Shown one piece after another: positions 4,256-13,676 of a DNA stretch of 22,994 bases (the stretch's first letter is position 1; each line of letters opens with the position of its first letter). This DNA comes from a virus: positions 1 to 22,994 of IMG/VR virus record IMGVR_UViG_3300033154_000149, one strand, 5' to 3'. The notes under the pieces are model-generated. The model searched no databases, was not told the DNA's origin, and was given only the letters and a program-made list of their open reading frames with translations. Position numbers and translations under genes: made by a program.

Positions 4256-5539
4256 ATGATTAGTACAGACGTATTCGAATTAAGTTTGTTGTCAGCAATG
4301 TTAAAAAATGAAGATATGATGAAGAAGATCATCGGCATGGTAGATAGTAACATGTTTTCTTCTTCAATGTCTGTTGAAATCTTTGATATAGTTAATGGTT
4401 ATCAAGCAGAGTATGGCAAAATTCCGTCCAAACACGACATCATTCACCTTTTTAAAAAGGGAAAGCCAATTGAAGATGTTAAGCAGTTTAGTGATTTACT
4501 TGAATTGTTGTTGAATCAGGATGTTAACCAAGACTTTGTGATGAATGAGTTAAATAAGTACATAAAGTTGAGGTCACTCGAACATCTATTTAAGAAACAG
4601 TACGACCATGCGAAGTCAGGCATGGAGGTTGACATATCAAACATCATTTCTGATATGTTCAAGATTCAGTTTGACACGTTGAAAGATAGAAAAATGTATG
4701 GTGTTGGACTTGATGAAGTTGATTTTCTAGTTGAACAGAGTAAGAGAAGAAACTACATACCAACGAACGTTTCATTTCTGAATGAGAAACTTGATGGTGG
4801 TGGGATTGCAAATGGTCAATTGGGTATTATTCTTGCACCACCTAACTATGGTAAGACGATGATGTTGTTGAATTTTGCATTACACGCCTACTTGAAAAGA
4901 TTTAACGTATTGTTTGTTACACTTGAAATGGAATCATATTCTATTATGAGACGTTGCATGACGTTACTTGCAGGTGCTCTACATGAAGAAATGACGCATG
5001 AAAAGTTGAGGCAGATAACCACCAAACTTGAGAATCAGTTCAAGATTCTATACCGACCTGTTCGTTCATTGACAGTTGATTATTTGTACTCAGTATACCA
5101 TCAGGCTATGGCAGATGGTGTAAAGTTTGACGTTATGTATATTGACTATGCTGACTTGTTGACAACAACAGTTGGTCATAAAGAGAAACGATTTGAGTTG
5201 TCTGATATATTCACTGGATTGAAGGGAATGGCACAGATTTTGGACATACCAGTTTGGTCTGCAACACAGACGAATCGTGAAGGCATGAAAGCAGAGACGG
5301 TGACGATGGAACATTTATCAGAAGATTTCAGTAAAGGCATGATTTCTGACATCATATTGTCATTGTCGAATAAGATGGCACCTGGTCGAGTAGTAAAGTT
5401 GTACCTTACAAAACAACGTGAAGGTGAATCAAATGTAACAATATCAACGTATGTAAATGGTAATTTATGGTGCGAAGAAAACGAAGAGGCATTGAATAGT
5501 GTTAATCTTGATGGAGCAGAGGAAGGAGTTGCTTTATGA
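4256..5539 (+). CDS. Replicative DNA helicase, DnaB family
   Basis: The 427-residue product has a DnaB N-terminal-type helical domain (residues about 5-110, with ELSLLSAMLKNED) followed by a RecA-fold motor. Walker A is APPNYGKT (194-201), with Ala in place of the first Gly, a variation common in phage DnaB homologues. Motif H1a-like TLEME is at 222-226, Walker B MYIDYADLL at 294-302, and SATQTNREG at 335-343 corresponds to DnaB's SQLNR sensor. It unwinds the fork as a hexamer. It sits between primase/helicase genes and the polymerase, completing the replisome core. Its stop overlaps the ATG of the next small gene (ATGA). Confidence 0.88.
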   Translation: MISTDVFELSLLSAMLKNEDMMKKIIGMVDSNMFSSSMSVEIFDIVNGYQAEYGKIPSKHDIIHLFKKGKPIEDVKQFSDLLELLLNQDVNQDFVMNELNKYIKLRSLEHLFKKQYDHAKSGMEVDISNIISDMFKIQFDTLKDRKMYGVGLDEVDFLVEQSKRRNYIPTNVSFLNEKLDGGGIANGQLGIILAPPNYGKTMMLLNFALHAYLKRFNVLFVTLEMESYSIMRRCMTLLAGALHEEMTHEKLRQITTKLENQFKILYRPVRSLTVDYLYSVYHQAMADGVKFDVMYIDYADLLTTTVGHKEKRFELSDIFTGLKGMAQILDIPVWSATQTNREGMKAETVTMEHLSEDFSKGMISDIILSLSNKMAPGRVVKLYLTKQREGESNVTISTYVNGNLWCEENEEALNSVNLDGAEEGVAL

Positions 5540-5632: not shown

Positions 5633-8074
5633 ATGGAACCGTATTCTTTATTAAATAATCAGGGTCTTGCGACTTGTTCAGAATGCCCGTTAAACGGTGC
5701 AAAACCTGTTTTCTCTTATTTTACAGACGAGAGTATTGATGTATTGGTTATTGGTCAGTCTCCCGGATACCAAGAAGTGGAACAGAGCAGACCATTTATA
5801 GGTCGTTCTGGTGAGTTGATTAATAACGTCTTACATAAGTACACGAAGAAAATTGGCTACATAAACTCAATGAATTGCAGACCACTAGATGATGGTATTG
5901 GTAAAGATAGAGCACCAGCTGCCGTAGAATTGAAATGTTGCAGAGAAAGACTAGTAGAAGACATCAAATATGCACTCGAAGAGTTGAAACCAAAAGTTGT
6001 ATTAGTGCTTGGTGGTGTTGCTAAAAAAGAGTATAAGAAGTTGATAAAGAAATACCCAGAAGTTGAGGATACAGTAACGTACATGATGGAACACCCGTCA
6101 TATATATTGCGTAATGACTTCATGATGAAACCATACATTCAAAATTTGCATAATTCATTGAAGTCAGTATTTGTGGTTGAGAATACCAACGTTGTAGATA
6201 CCTTTCTCTTATATAACAACAATATGAAGTTTAATTTTCTTGCAGACTGCAAAAAGACGAATGGTGTTGGTCTCGATATTGAGACTAATGGACTTGACGT
6301 ATTTTCTGAGGAATTCTTCATTGGTACGTTTGGTTTTACGTGCGATGATAATTCGTATTTCTTTGATTTTCGTAAGCCTGAATTCTTTGGTAAGGATGGC
6401 AAATGGTATGGAACAAGTAAGAACGACGTTTATGATTTTAGAGAATGTGAACCTTTAATACAGGTGTTGAAAGACCCGTCAATTCAGAAGGTAATTGCAA
6501 ACGTCATGTACGACGCTGTTGCTATTCATTACGCTGGAGTAGAAATCAATAATATTACTGATTTATTTCCACTTGCGTCTATGTATGACAACATGCATTA
6601 TGAGTACAGTTTAGAGGCTATTTGCATGAGATACATGCCTGAATACGCTGCCTATAAAAATAAGTTTAAGTTGAGCATTACAGATCATAACTATATGGCA
6701 GTTGATGTAAAGAATTTGATGATATACAACTGTTTTGATTCGTGGTCGACCAAGAGTTTGTATGATCTTTTGTATGCGAAACTTCCTGCAAAGACACGAA
6801 CGTTGTTTAATAATGTTTATATTCCATTGATGGCTACACTGGTCGAAGTTAAGTGTACTGGTATTAGAATTGATCAAGAGTTATTTGAAAAGTACGTAAA
6901 GACTTTTGAGGACAGATATGCTGAAATAAGTAGATTTCTTGATAGTAAATATGGTGTTACTAACATTAATTCAACACCACAGATTAAAAAGTGGTTTTTT
7001 AAGACACTAAAGTTGAAGTCAATACGAAAAACGAAGACAGGTGGTCAATCAACTGATAAGAAGGTAATTGAGTTTTATTCAGATAGAGTACCAGACGTTA
7101 AATTGTTATACGAGGCACGTCGTTATACTAGTTTATTAACGTATTTCATGCCTGCAATAAAAGAGAATATTGACAGGTTGGGTTTGATTCATCCAAACTA
7201 CAAACAATATGGCATTCAGTCTGGTCGAATTTCATGCAGAGCACCAAACTTGCAGGGTATTCCACGTGATAAAACAGGCATTAAAGTATTAGATGAAAAC
7301 CCATTGAGGCGTATGTTTACGTCTAGAGGTAAAGATTCATTTATACTTGAATTTGATTATTCACAACAAGAGGTAAGAATTGTTGCGTTCTTATCACAAG
7401 ATCCATCAATGATTCAGGCATTTAACGATGGACTTGACATTCACAGATTTGTTGCTACATTTATATTTAATAAGAAGTATGATGATATTACTGAATTTCA
7501 ACGTCAGGTAGCAAAGGGTTGTGTATTTGGCTCTATTTTTGGTGTTTCTGCAAGAGAGTTGGCTGATACCTTAAAAGTAACAGTGAAGGCTGCAGAGGCA
7601 TACATTCAGAAATTCTTCACGAAATTTCCAAGAGTTAAGTTGTATATTGACACTCAGGGTGATATTGCAGTCAATAAGAAAGAAGTTGTATCAATACTTG
7701 GAATGCCAAGAAAGTTCATGGTCAACTCCAAAAATGAGAAAGACGTTAGACGTGAGGGAGCCAATCATCAAATTCAATCGGTTGGTGCTGTGTTCACGTT
7801 TCTTTCTCTGAATAAAATAAAAGACAGTCTGAAAGAGAGTGGACTGTTGAATAATGGTGTTAAGATGATTCATTCGGTTCATGACTCCATAATGTTTGAT
7901 GTTGAAAGAATGCACATACCATACACTATTGATGTTGTGCAGTCAATTATGACTGCTGTACCACCGTCAATTGGATTCAAAATTGCATACCCAGTTGATT
8001 ATAAGATCGGGAGTCGTTGGGGACAGGATTTAAAACTTGAAGATGTGTTAAATGAACAGGTTGTATCAACATGA
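5633..8074 (+). CDS. Uracil-DNA glycosylase / DNA polymerase I fusion
   Basis: The 813-residue product has three parts. Residues 1-180 resemble a family 4 uracil-DNA glycosylase: CSECPL (C15, C18), GQSPGYQE (41-48), RPFIGRSGE, NCRPL (C82), C102/C103 (together a plausible 4Fe-4S set) and EHPSY (H154). Residues 210-380 are a 3'-5' exonuclease with D215/E217 (LDIET), D294 and YNCFD (D369), so proofreading looks intact. Residues 390-813 are a family A polymerase: motif A FDYSQQE (D575), motif B RQVAKGCVFGSIFG (R624, K628, F632), motif C SVHDS (D751). There is no 5' nuclease domain. In motif B the usual Tyr is Phe636, and in motif C the usual Glu after HD is Ser752. Its neighbour purZ suggests it copies a Z-containing genome (a DpoZ-like role), which is inference. 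Confidence 0.9.
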   Translation: MEPYSLLNNQGLATCSECPLNGAKPVFSYFTDESIDVLVIGQSPGYQEVEQSRPFIGRSGELINNVLHKYTKKIGYINSMNCRPLDDGIGKDRAPAAVELKCCRERLVEDIKYALEELKPKVVLVLGGVAKKEYKKLIKKYPEVEDTVTYMMEHPSYILRNDFMMKPYIQNLHNSLKSVFVVENTNVVDTFLLYNNNMKFNFLADCKKTNGVGLDIETNGLDVFSEEFFIGTFGFTCDDNSYFFDFRKPEFFGKDGKWYGTSKNDVYDFRECEPLIQVLKDPSIQKVIANVMYDAVAIHYAGVEINNITDLFPLASMYDNMHYEYSLEAICMRYMPEYAAYKNKFKLSITDHNYMAVDVKNLMIYNCFDSWSTKSLYDLLYAKLPAKTRTLFNNVYIPLMATLVEVKCTGIRIDQELFEKYVKTFEDRYAEISRFLDSKYGVTNINSTPQIKKWFFKTLKLKSIRKTKTGGQSTDKKVIEFYSDRVPDVKLLYEARRYTSLLTYFMPAIKENIDRLGLIHPNYKQYGIQSGRISCRAPNLQGIPRDKTGIKVLDENPLRRMFTSRGKDSFILEFDYSQQEVRIVAFLSQDPSMIQAFNDGLDIHRFVATFIFNKKYDDITEFQRQVAKGCVFGSIFGVSARELADTLKVTVKAAEAYIQKFFTKFPRVKLYIDTQGDIAVNKKEVVSILGMPRKFMVNSKNEKDVRREGANHQIQSVGAVFTFLSLNKIKDSLKESGLLNNGVKMIHSVHDSIMFDVERMHIPYTIDVVQSIMTAVPPSIGFKIAYPVDYKIGSRWGQDLKLEDVLNEQVVST

Positions 8075-8088
8075 AAGGAAGGTGAGTA

Positions 8089-9117
8089 ATGTTACAAGAA
8101 GGTAAACTTAATTTGTTGTTGGGCATTTCATTTGGTTCGGAGGGAAAAGGTAACATTTGTGAGTATATTGCCAGAAATGCCAAAATTGATCTGGCTATTG
8201 CAAACAACACTCCAAATGCAGGTCATTTTTATCATACAGATGACGGAGAAGTTCGTTTGGCTAAGATGTTGCCAGTTTCGGGTATTACCAACAAAGAATC
8301 AAATATTCTTCTTGGTTCTGGGTCAGCTATCAATTTGGAGATTCTGGACAAAGAAATTACAGAATCAGACTGTGGTAATCGTACGTTGATCGCCACATCA
8401 GCACCTGTTGTAAATCAGAAATGTATCGATTACGAAGTTGAAAATCTGCAGTACATAGCATCAACCTTCCAAGGTAGTGGGGCTGCTATCGGTCTCAAGG
8501 CTATGAGGTCTAAAGACGTTACTATCGTGCGTGATGTACCAGAATTAGAGAAATACGCACATACTAACATCGCAGACATCATTATGAATCGAGTTGTCAA
8601 GCATGGCAAGACTGCATTCGCAGAAATTTGTCAAGGATATGGACTTTCAGTTGACTCTGAATTCTATCCTTTTTGCACGTCTCGACCAGTGAATGTTGGT
8701 CAGGCACTTGGCTATCTTGATGTGCCACATGACATTGTTGGTGATGTAATAGGAGTTGCACGAACCTATATTATTCGTGTTGGTAATGTACCTGGTGGTA
8801 GTTCTGGACCCGTGTATTACGATTCTAAAGAAATGACATGGGAAGAGGTATCACAACACATCGGACGTGATGTAACAGAGAAGACGTCCGTTACGAAAAG
8901 GGTGCGTCGGGTATTCACGTTTAGTAAGTTTCTATTTGAACAGGCAGTACGCAGAAATAGTGTCAATGTTTTATATCTCACCTTTGTTGATTATTTGGTG
9001 GGTAATGAAAAGCAGGAATTCATTGATTATCTAACGTCTGAGGAGTTCAATTTCAAAGAGATTTACTTTGTATCAGGTTTTGGTGAATTCGATAAACACG
9101 TTGAAAAGATAAAATGA
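8089..9117 (+). CDS. purZ: PurZ-like N6-succino-2-amino-dAMP synthase (PurA family)
   Basis: The 342-residue product is the length of archaeal-type PurA. The P-loop is GISFGSEGKG (12-21): PurA has WGDEGKGK with a catalytic Asp, and here that position is Ser17, the substitution reported for PurZ enzymes that use dGMP instead of IMP. The catalytic His is kept in NAGH (H46), and the aspartate-binding loop TKRVRR (269-274) matches PurA's RxRR. Expected reaction: dGMP plus aspartate gives N6-succino-2-amino-dAMP, which host PurB converts to 2-aminoadenine nucleotide. T298-x-x-D301 (LTFVD) resembles the PurA guanine-reading TKxD, so GTP may be the phosphate donor. A GGAAGGTGA ribosome site precedes the start, 14 bases after the polymerase. 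A host-like PurA role is the alternative, but Ser17 argues against it. Confidence 0.82.
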   Translation: MLQEGKLNLLLGISFGSEGKGNICEYIARNAKIDLAIANNTPNAGHFYHTDDGEVRLAKMLPVSGITNKESNILLGSGSAINLEILDKEITESDCGNRTLIATSAPVVNQKCIDYEVENLQYIASTFQGSGAAIGLKAMRSKDVTIVRDVPELEKYAHTNIADIIMNRVVKHGKTAFAEICQGYGLSVDSEFYPFCTSRPVNVGQALGYLDVPHDIVGDVIGVARTYIIRVGNVPGGSSGPVYYDSKEMTWEEVSQHIGRDVTEKTSVTKRVRRVFTFSKFLFEQAVRRNSVNVLYLTFVDYLVGNEKQEFIDYLTSEEFNFKEIYFVSGFGEFDKHVEKIK

Positions 9118-10391: not shown

Positions 10392-10863
10392 TGTTTTGGA
10401 TGATATATTGAACAAGATCAGTCTTTCATTTGGTAATGAATCGTTGGAGTTGATTATACCACATGAACAGATGATTGAAATGTCTATGTATCGTGTTGGT
10501 GCATTAGATATTGATGATTTGGATGGTGAGTTGGTGTTCCTGCCAAAGATGTACACGTTGTTTACTGCATTATTGTCGTTTGTTGTTGAGAAGTCAAATC
10601 ATGCACATACACACGTAAAGAGAATAGAGGCAACTCAATCTTTGCAGTATGAGAAACAACTTGTTGGTGCTGGTGAACGTGCAACAGATAAGAAAATAGA
10701 AAAACTTGTTATATCTGATGAAATGTATAAAGTTGCTGTTGACCAAGATTTAGATTTTAAGAATATGGTGATGTCCTTTCAGAACATACTTAAGGCACTT
10801 GAAGTGAAACGTGATTCTCTGTTGCAATTAGTTAAGAAGAGAAGACAAGAAATGGAGGCTTGA
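10381..10863 (+). CDS. Putative UvsY-like recombination mediator
   Basis: The 160-residue product starts after AAGGAAGGTGA. It is helical and charged, with VKRIEATQSLQYEKQL in the middle, a SDEMYKVAVDQDLD segment and a C-terminal KALEVKRDSLLQLVKKRRQE. T4 UvsY has the same order of elements (an RIEA-containing helix, a basic middle, a segment of acidic and helical residues, and a C-terminal helix with conserved Arg). It sits directly before the uvsX/recA gene, where a recombination mediator would be expected. The assignment rests on architecture and context rather than a diagnostic motif. It would load the recombinase onto SSB-coated ssDNA. Confidence 0.45.
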   Translation: MQSDVLDDILNKISLSFGNESLELIIPHEQMIEMSMYRVGALDIDDLDGELVFLPKMYTLFTALLSFVVEKSNHAHTHVKRIEATQSLQYEKQLVGAGERATDKKIEKLVISDEMYKVAVDQDLDFKNMVMSFQNILKALEVKRDSLLQLVKKRRQEMEA

Positions 10864-10865
10864 AA

Positions 10866-12014
10866 ATGAACAAGAAAAGTGAAAAATTGAAAACTGAGGC
10901 AGTACCTTTGGATGACTTAGGTTCTCTTGTCGGTAATCTTATTAAAGATTATCGTAAAGTTGGTCTACCTATGGAAAAAGGGAAAGTTGATTGTGAATTT
11001 ATTGATACTGGCAATCTTGCATTAAATTATATAATGTCAGGTTCGTTTGATGATGGACTACCATCTGGTCAATTAACTGAAATTCATGGCGACCCGTCAA
11101 CTGGTAAATCTCTTCTCTTGTATAACATCATCGCAAATTTCTTGATTAAGTACCCAAAAGGTGTTGTTATACTTGATGATGCTGAACAGGCTTATGTGCA
11201 ATATCTTGGGTCGAAGTTGCAAATTGATGAATCTCGTTTGATTAAGATTTCATCTGCAACCATTGAAGATCATATGAATATGGTATTTCGTGGTGGTCAA
11301 ATCATCAATCAAGTAAATGATGAATCAGATGAAATTGAAGTTGCAGATCCAATTATTCGAAAGTTGTTGAGTGCTGGTGTTACTCAAATATTGATTGCTA
11401 TTGACAGTATTGCAGTTTTGTCAACCAAACATGAACAGGCGGTTGGTCTCGATAAGCCTGACTTGTCAAAGGCAAAGGTATTAAAGGCACTCTTACGTGT
11501 TGCAGTTCCTTACATCAAGAAGTACAAACTCACCTATATTATAACCAATCACTTGATATACAAAATTGGGTCTCAAATACCTAATCAGAAAGTTACTCCC
11601 GGTGGCGGTGGTATCGTGTATCAGTCGTCTATTCGATTGGGAATGACATACACAGGTAAACTCAAAGTGAAAGACACGAATTTGATTGCAGGTGTCAAGT
11701 CAAGAGTAACGACTGTGAAGAATCGATTTGCACCTCCATTTAGACAGGCTGATATGGAGATTTTATTCAATGCAGGCATATCAAAGTATTCAGGTTTAGT
11801 TTCTCTTTTAACTAATATGGGTGTGTTGAAAATGACAAGTGGTGGTTGGTATACTATAATTGATACTGACATGAAGTTTCAACAAAAACATTTGTCTGAA
11901 AAGTGGGAAGAAATTCGAAAGTTGATAGAGGCAAAAGGTATTTTACAACGCAAACAAGAGGTTGTTGATTATGTAGATCCAAATGTAATAACACAAGACC
12001 AACTTGATGGATAA
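10866..12014 (+). CDS. RecA/UvsX-like recombinase
   Basis: The frame is open from TTG 10860, but ATG 10866 lies 7 bases after GGAGG (10854-10858) and is preferred (382 residues). Walker A is GDPSTGKS (75-82). The RecA catalytic-Glu segment is VILDDAEQA (E107), Walker B is ILIAID (175-180). YIITNHLIYKIG has Asn-His where RecA has Asn-Gln, as I recall for UvsX. The ssDNA-binding loop 2 region is KVTPGGGGIVYQSSIRL. It forms presynaptic filaments for strand invasion and recombination-dependent replication, probably with the SSB, the upstream UvsY-like protein and the SbcD-SbcC fusion that resects ends. Confidence 0.9.
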   Translation: MNKKSEKLKTEAVPLDDLGSLVGNLIKDYRKVGLPMEKGKVDCEFIDTGNLALNYIMSGSFDDGLPSGQLTEIHGDPSTGKSLLLYNIIANFLIKYPKGVVILDDAEQAYVQYLGSKLQIDESRLIKISSATIEDHMNMVFRGGQIINQVNDESDEIEVADPIIRKLLSAGVTQILIAIDSIAVLSTKHEQAVGLDKPDLSKAKVLKALLRVAVPYIKKYKLTYIITNHLIYKIGSQIPNQKVTPGGGGIVYQSSIRLGMTYTGKLKVKDTNLIAGVKSRVTTVKNRFAPPFRQADMEILFNAGISKYSGLVSLLTNMGVLKMTSGGWYTIIDTDMKFQQKHLSEKWEEIRKLIEAKGILQRKQEVVDYVDPNVITQDQLDG

Positions 12015-12029: not shown

Positions 12030-13160
12030 TTGTTTAAACCTGATAAAGTATCAATTGGTCTTGACGATATAGCCGTCATACCAGAATCACCTGTTGTATT
12101 TTCTGATTCAGAAGTCGATCTGTCTATTGATATAGGTAAATTGAAGTTGGGATTGCCTATCATATCGGCTGCTATGGACAGTGTATTTTCACCTGCAATC
12201 GTATCGAGATTGAGTGAAGAAGGTGGCTATTCATTACTCAATTTGTGTGGATTGATGTCGAGATACAAGTTTGAAATGTGGGAAAAAATATTCAATAAAA
12301 TAAGCAATCTGCCTGTTATACTCATTCTACAACATTTGTACAATGACAAGCCGATGGATCATGCAATTCTCAGACACAATTTGAAAGAGTTGAAAGGTCA
12401 TACTAGTGCTAAGTTTGGTGTGTCTGCAACACCTCAAACAGCAGAAAGTCTGTTTGAAACAGCACTTGAAGTTGGTGGTTATGATACGTTTGCAATTCAG
12501 TCTTCTTTTGTATCACCATTTTGGAAGTCGAAGACAATAGAAGGTTTGGACATTATTAAGTATTTAAAGAAGTTGAAGGATCAAGGATGCACGACGATGG
12601 TTGGTAATGTAGCGTCACTTAACGTTGCACGTGTATTTATTGATGGTGGTGTTGATGCGTTATTCTTGGGTATCGGACCCGGAGTAATATGCACGACACG
12701 TAAAGTGTTGGGTATTGGTGCAGGTCACATCACGTCTATTCATAACATAAGAGAGTATATTGAAACATCATCGTCTGATACACGAATTATAGCAGATGGT
12801 GGTATTCAGTGTAGTGGTGATATTATTAAGTTAATATGCACAGGTGCTCATGCAGTAGTAATTGGTGGTATGTTTGCACGTACGGCTCAGGCTCCTTTTA
12901 TTGGGTATCACTGGGGACAATCAGCCTGTCATAGGACACTTCCTAGAGGCAATTTACAAAAGTTTGAGACCAACGAATTTGACACTATTCAAAAGGTGTT
13001 GGTGGGTCCATCTGATGTTGATGATGGAAGATTCAATTTGGTTCATGCAATTAAAAATGCCTTTAGTAACATTGGTGTCTTGAACGTTTCAGACGCTTAT
13101 CACAAGACATCAGTTGTGCAGTTTGGAGGCATGGCAACTGAGGGGAAATTGAAAAAATGA
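12030..13160 (+). CDS. IMP dehydrogenase / GMP reductase family enzyme (GuaB-like)
   Basis: Start is TTG 12030, fixed by GAGAGGAG at 12016-12023. The 376-residue (beta/alpha)8 enzyme has LPIISAAMDSV (42-52), GNVASLNVARVFIDGGVDAL, the catalytic loop GIGPGVICTTR (Cys221), ADGGIQCSGD phosphate-binding (255-264) and VIGGMFA. The CICTTR-type loop is closest to IMPDH. It lacks the CBS pair that makes typical IMPDH about 490 residues. The region after residue 290 does not show the usual RGM or Arg-Tyr flap, and the NAD-contact Asp segment is replaced by FAIQSSFVSP. It may therefore raise GMP/dGMP supply for PurZ, or catalyse a related reaction on another purine. Its place next to the DUF5664 gene supports a nucleotide-pool role. 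Confidence 0.75.
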   Translation: MFKPDKVSIGLDDIAVIPESPVVFSDSEVDLSIDIGKLKLGLPIISAAMDSVFSPAIVSRLSEEGGYSLLNLCGLMSRYKFEMWEKIFNKISNLPVILILQHLYNDKPMDHAILRHNLKELKGHTSAKFGVSATPQTAESLFETALEVGGYDTFAIQSSFVSPFWKSKTIEGLDIIKYLKKLKDQGCTTMVGNVASLNVARVFIDGGVDALFLGIGPGVICTTRKVLGIGAGHITSIHNIREYIETSSSDTRIIADGGIQCSGDIIKLICTGAHAVVIGGMFARTAQAPFIGYHWGQSACHRTLPRGNLQKFETNEFDTIQKVLVGPSDVDDGRFNLVHAIKNAFSNIGVLNVSDAYHKTSVVQFGGMATEGKLKK

Positions 13161-13576
13161 GTGAATTGAGAAAGAAACATAAAGAAAGAGCATCATCTGA
13201 CCCTGCAGTAAAAGGCGATGGTGACAAGTTGCGATTCGACCTTGTACCAATTGAGGCTATGGAAGAAGTTGCCAAAGTATACACAGTTGGTGCAGTTAAG
13301 TATGAAGATAGAAATTGGGAAAAAGGTATGAAGTGGTCACGAATGTATGCGGCCATGGAACGTCATGCGAAGGCATTTTGGAGAGGTGAGACGTATGACC
13401 CAGAAACTGGAATTCATCATATGGCTCATGCTGCTTGGAATTGTCTTGCATTGATTCATTATACAATGTTTAAACCTGAGTTTGATGATAGACCAGTTCA
13501 TGCAATACCTGTAATAAAATTGAAATTGAATAAGAAGGACTCCAAAACATTCAAGAAGTTGAATGGATTAAAATAA
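13157..13576 (+). CDS. DUF5664 family, putative dATP/dGTP diphosphohydrolase (MazZ-like role)
   Basis: The 139-residue protein starts in an ATGA overlap with the GuaB-like gene. Residues 19-103 match the DUF5664 signature: KGDGDKLRFDLVPIEAMEEV, then YTVGAVKYEDRNWEKGMKWS, then ERHAKAFWRGE.YDPETG and HHMAHAAWNCLALIHY. The family is named for dATP/dGTP diphosphohydrolase activity, and all-helical Glu/His/Asp residues of this kind bind Mg-nucleotide. In a Z-genome phage such an enzyme would make dGMP (the PurZ substrate) and lower dATP. The tight overlap with the GuaB-like gene supports a joint role in purine pools. Activity here is inferred from family and context. The C-terminal 30 residues are basic and not part of the signature. 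Confidence 0.75.
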   Translation: MSELRKKHKERASSDPAVKGDGDKLRFDLVPIEAMEEVAKVYTVGAVKYEDRNWEKGMKWSRMYAAMERHAKAFWRGETYDPETGIHHMAHAAWNCLALIHYTMFKPEFDDRPVHAIPVIKLKLNKKDSKTFKKLNGLK

Positions 13577-13582
13577 GTTGTT

Positions 13583-13655
13583 GGGGCTATAGTGTAATCG
13601 GTTAACACAGCAGGTTTTCAATCTGCTATTTCGAGTTCGAGTCTCGGTAGCCCTA
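13583..13655 (+). tRNA. tRNA-Glu (anticodon UUC)
   Basis: A full cloverleaf folds. The acceptor GGGGCTA pairs TAGCCCT with a G-U at the end. The D-stem is GTGT/ACAC, with loop AATCGGTTA. The anticodon stem GCAGG/TCTGC (last pair G-U) closes loop TTTTCAA with anticodon TTC at 13617-13619. The T-stem is TCGAG/CTCGG with loop TTCGAGT, and the discriminator is A. CCA is not encoded. It sits in the same direction as the genes, between the DUF5664 gene and a small ORF, and would read the abundant GAA codons of this AT-rich genome. Confidence 0.93.
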
Positions 13656-13676
13656 TAATGAAAAGGAGAGTGAAAC

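Follow-up and report, generated by a model that had tools for sequence, protein, structure and literature searches.

A PurZ-type synthetase gene next to a helix-O phenylalanine polymerase in a virus contig whose DNA probably contains 2-aminoadenine in place of adenine

The window analysed here is the complete 22,994-base virus record IMGVR_UViG_3300033154_000149 of IMG/VR, which is probably a fragment. On its + strand it carries purZ (8089..9117), whose 342-residue product (ATG start, TGA stop) is supported as an enzyme of a known kind, a PurZ-type succino-2-amino-deoxyadenylate synthetase. Considered together with the neighbouring genes, this suggests that A in the phage DNA is probably replaced by 2-aminoadenine (Z). 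A PurZ using dGMP, a nucleotide supply assisted by the phage and a DNA polymerase with a phenylalanine in helix O would result in a genome copied with Z for A, a reading to which we assign a probability of about 0.78. The direct evidence consists of gene content, synteny, residues and tree positions, from which we infer the enzyme activities, the phosphate donor, the polymerase preference and the presence of Z in the virion. PurZ alone is no proof of complete substitution, since some PurZ phages keep the ordinary tyrosine in their polymerase. The inference of a Z genome is strengthened by the Tyr-to-Phe change of the polymerase, by a DUF5664 gene and a GuaB3-like gene, and by the conservation of these in a relative, G002 (a 57,849-base IMG/VR contig; a second contig of 7,958 bases is identical to part of it).

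The DNA polymerase gene stops at 8074, and the purZ ATG follows 14 bp downstream, preceded by a Shine-Dalgarno-like GGAAGG. Since homologues are present in 197 phage records and the 68%-identical orthologue in G002 has changed mainly at third positions (92, 65 and 204 differences at codon positions 1, 2 and 3, respectively, over 341 codons), purZ is regarded as a real gene. A sequence-only reading of this DNA had described a gene directly 3' of the polymerase, with a P-loop FGSEGKG in which Ser17 replaces the PurA Asp, and with His46 (NAGH) and the aspartate loop kept. All of this is borne out by the translation, which reads F15-G16-S17-E18-G19-K20-G21, N43-A44-G45-H46 and R271-V272-R273-R274. 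In the alignments, Ser17 (codon 8137..8139, + strand) occupies the position of the catalytic Asp of PurA; the Ser is kept in every phage PurZ row, while the PurA rows carry Asp. The same reading had taken the Asp-to-Ser change as a mark of PurZ, which turned out to be too narrow a view, as plasmid-borne PurA-like proteins of Agrobacterium and Methylobacterium share it. These adenylosuccinate synthetase homologues (L195 43-1656, Agrobacterium rubi pW2_73_2; L196, Methylobacterium bullatum plasmid 1) read GSEGKG, with Ser for the catalytic Asp, and possess a phage-like LTF(A/V)DY donor motif as well as an extension of the P-loop at the N-terminus; in the tree, they group with PurA, apart from phage PurZ. 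Another plasmid gene, on the conjugative Rhizobium leguminosarum pRL23b2 (L194 589-1596), encodes a short archaeal-type PurA between folE and purB.

Among the NCBIfam models, PurZ (NF038379) gave the highest score with the 342-residue protein (200.8 bits, E 2.7e-59), followed by archaeal-type PurA (139.8 bits) and PurA (99.7 bits), and PHROG 1211, '2-aminooxy adenylosuccinate synthetase', matched it with an E of 5.6e-49. Sequence matches in the PDB were phiVC8 PurZ (6fko, E 3.7e-39) and S-2L PurZ (E 6.8e-35), with PurZ0 and PurA reaching only about 1e-15. BLAST gave 125-218 bits for phage PurZ, 111-121 for the plasmid Ser type, 84-108 for PurZ0 and at most 79 for PurA. The predicted fold (predicted local distance difference test score 92.3) has as its top structural match 6fm1, the phiVC8 PurZ structure with ATP and dGMP (structural Z 41.0, root-mean-square deviation 2.1 over 322 residues). 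However, an archaeal PurA nearly equals this match (structural Z 40.3), and the fold by itself therefore does not decide between PurZ and PurA.

The trees are more discriminating. In a 66-row tree, the proteins of the window and G002 paired (100/100) and fell with PurZ at a split of 100/92 support, within a clade holding three assayed PurZ (96/91). When PurA rows were added, the split was recovered at 100/96 and the grouping with the assayed PurZ at 88/76. In the approximately unbiased (AU) test with the enlarged PurA set, union with PurA was rejected at p 0.011 and union with the plasmid Ser type at p 0.017. Placement inside cellular PurA, which would have contradicted the sequence-only reading, was thus not obtained, and its assignment of a PurZ-type homologue is backed by profile scores, PDB matches, trees and the AU test in the enlarged set. 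PurZ proteins with Ser were also observed on jumbo-sized contigs (L002, L026, L052, L063, L073 and L086, 355-427 kb; L048 and L050, 157 and 197 kb), where they make up a separate PurZ branch that also takes in some contigs of smaller size (13 rows, 100/100); a literature search for jumbo phages with PurZ found no paper. The sole match in a profile search of genome contigs with the PurZ-type alignment was an ordinary Algibacter PurA, and the search thus pointed to no host.

Several points, here and below, weigh against a Z genome. NF038379 is the best family by 61 bits, but its cut-off of 300 bits is missed by the window protein (200.8) and by that of G002 (201.4); for this reason the protein is called PurZ-type and not a member of the curated family. 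With the smaller set of three PurA rows, union with PurA was not rejected (p 0.12). The window protein lies outside the PurZ0 branch (Wayne/Ghobes type) in both trees, but the AU test of a PurZ0 union, with the smaller PurA set, gave p 0.087. A long stem (1.3 changes per column) leads to window plus G002, and their exact branching point is uncertain. One may ask whether the gene product is instead a PurA that has diverged, or an enzyme resembling PurA such as the plasmid Ser type, and boosts the supply of adenine or makes another purine in a phage with ordinary A in its DNA. The score under the PurZ cut-off, the AU result with few PurA rows and the existence of plasmid PurA-like proteins with Ser and an LTFVDY donor motif would fit such an enzyme. 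It is contradicted by the profile order of PurZ, archaeal PurA and PurA, by BLAST, which favours phage PurZ, by both AU rejections in the enlarged set and by the co-located DUF5664 gene and Phe polymerase. We consider it very unlikely.

The phosphate-donor site of the PurZ-type protein differs from that of most phage relatives. In S-2L PurZ, Asn305 and Gln308 (Asn297 in phiVC8) hold the donor adenine (PMC8342488). The window has Thr298 and, at the donor-base position, Asp301 (codon 8989..8991, + strand), equivalent to S-2L Gln308, phiVC8 Asn297 and the Asp of E. coli PurA TKLD, so that the residues of an ATP/dATP-type pocket (Asn plus Gln or Asn at S-2L 305 and 308) are absent. In the alignment, the motif is Thr298-Phe-Val-Asp301 in the window, Thr-Phe-Thr-Asp in G002, TMLD or SFAD in PurZ0 and TKLD in E. 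coli PurA, while nearly all other PurZ carry Asn or Gln at the donor-base position; on the tree, this residue requires five changes. Since Asp301 is as in GTP-using PurA, and not the Asn/Gln of ATP-using PurZ, the window PurZ is predicted to use GTP or dGTP, not ATP, as donor. PurZ0 reportedly uses GTP, and GTP was present in the solved structure of an archaeal PurA (5k7x). One sentence in PMC12884076 reverses the donor preferences, contradicting that paper's own introduction.

The DNA polymerase (5633..8074, + strand) consists of a uracil-DNA glycosylase (UDG) family-4-like domain (PF03167), a 3'-5' exonuclease (PF01612) and a family A polymerase (PF00476), with catalytic residues kept. By alignment, its Phe636 (codon 7538..7540, + strand) corresponds to Tyr766 of E. 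coli Pol I. This helix-O Tyr-to-Phe change is the only one named as common to both known DpoZ clades (Czernecki et al. 2021, PMC8599892), and a 2026 survey counted two DpoZ origins (PMC12884076). Among the polymerases aligned, Phe is present in the window, G002, 34/34 phiVC8-like and 2/2 Wayne-type enzymes. Other PurZ phages aligned have Tyr (six), Thr (seven) or Asn (two) at this position, so that Phe is not required by PurZ, another of the points on the opposing side; family A polymerases with Tyr, Asn or Thr were noted in the PurZ phages L027, L038, L047, L069, L020 and L132, L011 and L012, and the L024 group.

All 79 nearest IMG/VR relatives of the window polymerase carry Tyr. PurZ lies near one of them, and the same one was the only PurZ carrier when 33 records of the 79 were searched in full. 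In a tree built without the helix-O columns, Phe requires three changes, each of them imposed by branches with good support, and a single clade of Phe polymerases was rejected on these columns-removed data (p-AU 1.46e-6). Therefore, Phe arose three times in the sample, on every occasion in a phage with PurZ or PurZ0. The window polymerase misses the DpoZ NCBIfam cut-offs (86 bits, cut-off 500; 54.9 bits, cut-off 350) and lies outside both clades; its adaptation to Z appears to have occurred separately from both known cases, as a candidate third-lineage DpoZ. It could be argued, with respect to the polymerase only, that the change is neutral or serves another role, for example in fidelity or with the fused UDG, and that the match with DpoZ is coincidental. 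The Tyr-to-Phe mutant of Taq Pol I still works on normal DNA (PMC8599892), and the window adds just one further lineage, judged against a limited sample of 79 relatives. Nevertheless, Phe occurs in 0/79 near relatives, UDG-fused ones included, and every one of its three separate origins is in PurZ or PurZ0 phages, which makes coincidence rather unlikely, although it deserves serious consideration.

UDG fusion as a Z-specific feature was rejected, as 36/79 related phage polymerases are UDG-fused. The UDG motif (window 5747-5767, region of polymerase residues 39-45) reads GQSPG in the window and G002, with the iron-sulphur cysteines kept, and GEAPG or GEGPG in nearly all other UDG-fused phage polymerases; the domain may have lost its ability to excise uracil, or this activity may differ from the usual one. 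Apparent inteins, at the polymerase UDG motif (GQ/SPG) and near the helicase Walker A, were observed in the relative (L100 6519-10001, G002 31191-33248), while the window has none. A single-protein scan of IMG/VR with the window polymerase found no relative, and a literature search gave no relevant paper joining PurZ with a UDG-fused polymerase.

Further downstream, a GuaB3-like IMP (inosine monophosphate) dehydrogenase gene (12030..13160, + strand, TTG start) matches TIGR01304 (E 5.6e-60) and contains the catalytic Cys in GIGPGVICTTR; cyanobacterial GuaB3 (8p4q) matches it over the full length (E 6e-51, residues 8-374). The adjoining DUF5664 gene (13157..13576, + strand), which overlaps its end, encodes a predicted dATP/dGTP diphosphohydrolase (PF18909 E 6.5e-36, above cut-off; phrog_801 E 1e-47), and the DUF5664 enzyme of phage Wayne hydrolyses dATP and dGTP to the monophosphates (PMC12884076). 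IMP dehydrogenase was found in 2/72 searched PurZ-bearing records, namely G002 and a 371-kb jumbo contig with a full IMP dehydrogenase (G022, the record of L052), and near related polymerases in 0/79 neighbourhoods. Record L090, a faecal 'phage' sequence bearing a GuaB-like gene, was dropped, as it resembles a bacterial fragment. The literature search revealed no relevant paper linking PurZ and IMP dehydrogenase. The phage seems to feed the Z pathway with its own guanine-making enzyme.

The remaining counterpoints concern this supply. The GuaB3-like protein scores 203.5 bits and misses the TIGR01304 cut-off of 342.1; no homologue of DatZ or MazZ was detected by phmmer in the window or G002, nor was an HD_3 hydrolase found; and both sequences are fragments. 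The canonical Z-cluster arrangement (datZ-mazZ-purZ) is absent, with DUF5664 present instead. PurZ might therefore be functional in a phage whose genome is only partly Z, or has Z as a minor base, with DatZ and MazZ missing and a polymerase that is not truly selective. The many PurZ-bearing phages whose polymerases lack the helix-O Phe would agree with this, as would the missing homologues. However, DUF5664 acts on both dATP and dGTP (PMC12884076) and could substitute for DatZ and MazZ, and an independent Tyr-to-Phe change occurred exactly in the window lineage. Partial substitution is consequently judged unlikely.

For full replacement of A by Z, a pathway can be proposed in which all catalytic steps are deduced from homology. 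The GuaB3-like enzyme would push IMP towards GMP, via host GuaA, and reduction to dGDP/dGTP would be carried out by a host reductase or, in G002, by a phage reductase. The DUF5664 enzyme would convert dGTP to dGMP, the substrate of PurZ, and dATP to dAMP, thereby removing a competitor. PurZ would join aspartate and dGMP to give N6-succino-2-amino-dAMP (dSMP), host PurB and kinases would convert dSMP to dZTP, and the family A polymerase with its helix-O Phe would incorporate Z instead of A.

These genes are part of a replication module that G002 shares in the same order: single-stranded DNA-binding protein, primase, SNF2-type helicase, DnaB, UDG-exonuclease-PolA, PurZ, RecA, GuaB3-like, DUF5664 and SbcCD, with 42-68% protein identity. 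In the window, the DnaB-like replicative helicase (4256..5539, + strand; PF03796 E 1.2e-19) and the RecA-like recombinase between purZ and the GuaB3-like gene (10860..12014, + strand) are both syntenic in G002. G002 additionally has an adenosylcobalamin-dependent ribonucleotide reductase between PurZ and RecA (TIGR02504, 662 bits, cut-off 400), of which none was seen in the window. A tRNA-Glu (TTC) gene lies immediately 3' of the DUF5664 gene (13582-13656).

The basis of the polymerase preference for Z over A is unsettled, with one change known to be common to two clades (PMC8599892) and two origins counted (PMC12884076). If the same lone substitution arose a third time, exchanging the helix-O residue once in either direction would put its role to a direct test. 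Furthermore, a guanine-making enzyme together with a donor site of the GTP type would open a new route of dZTP supply, useful for building Z-DNA in laboratory bacteria.

Compared with known systems, the window may represent a third independent Z-DNA system, with a UDG-fused Z-selective polymerase, a GTP-driven PurZ, an IMP dehydrogenase directing flow from adenine to guanine, and DUF5664 replacing DatZ and MazZ; we put this forward tentatively, at slightly less than even odds. Like cyanobacterial GuaB3 (8p4q), the GuaB3-like protein has no CBS module and contains the catalytic Cys and the ADGG motif, but it is phage-borne and under the TIGR01304 cut-off. The polymerase shares with the phiVC8-like and Wayne-like DpoZ a family A architecture with 3'-5' exonuclease, the Tyr766-to-Phe change and a gene near purZ. 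In contrast to both clades, it has a UDG-like N-terminal domain, and the remainder of its helix O resembles ordinary Pol I (RQVAKGCVFGSIFG). PurZ0 (Arthrobacter phage Wayne/Gordonia phage Ghobes type, 7vf6) has the same Ser for Asp and a donor-base Asp (TMLD, SFAD), and DUF5664 occurs in Wayne-type phages too; however, the window PurZ lies outside the PurZ0 branch, a union not significantly rejected, its polymerase belongs to a different clade, and neither DutZ nor DmtZ, the PurZ0-type neighbours, was recognised among the window genes scanned. From the PurZ of phiVC8, S-2L and Acinetobacter phage SH-Ab 15497, the window PurZ differs in sequence (about 29-34% identity), in its long stem and in the donor motif (T-F-V-D instead of N-F-x-N/Q), while it shares the P-loop Ser for Asp, the His, the aspartate loop, the IRV stretch conserved in the pocket for dGMP, the tree neighbourhood and the fold (34% identity with 6fm1).
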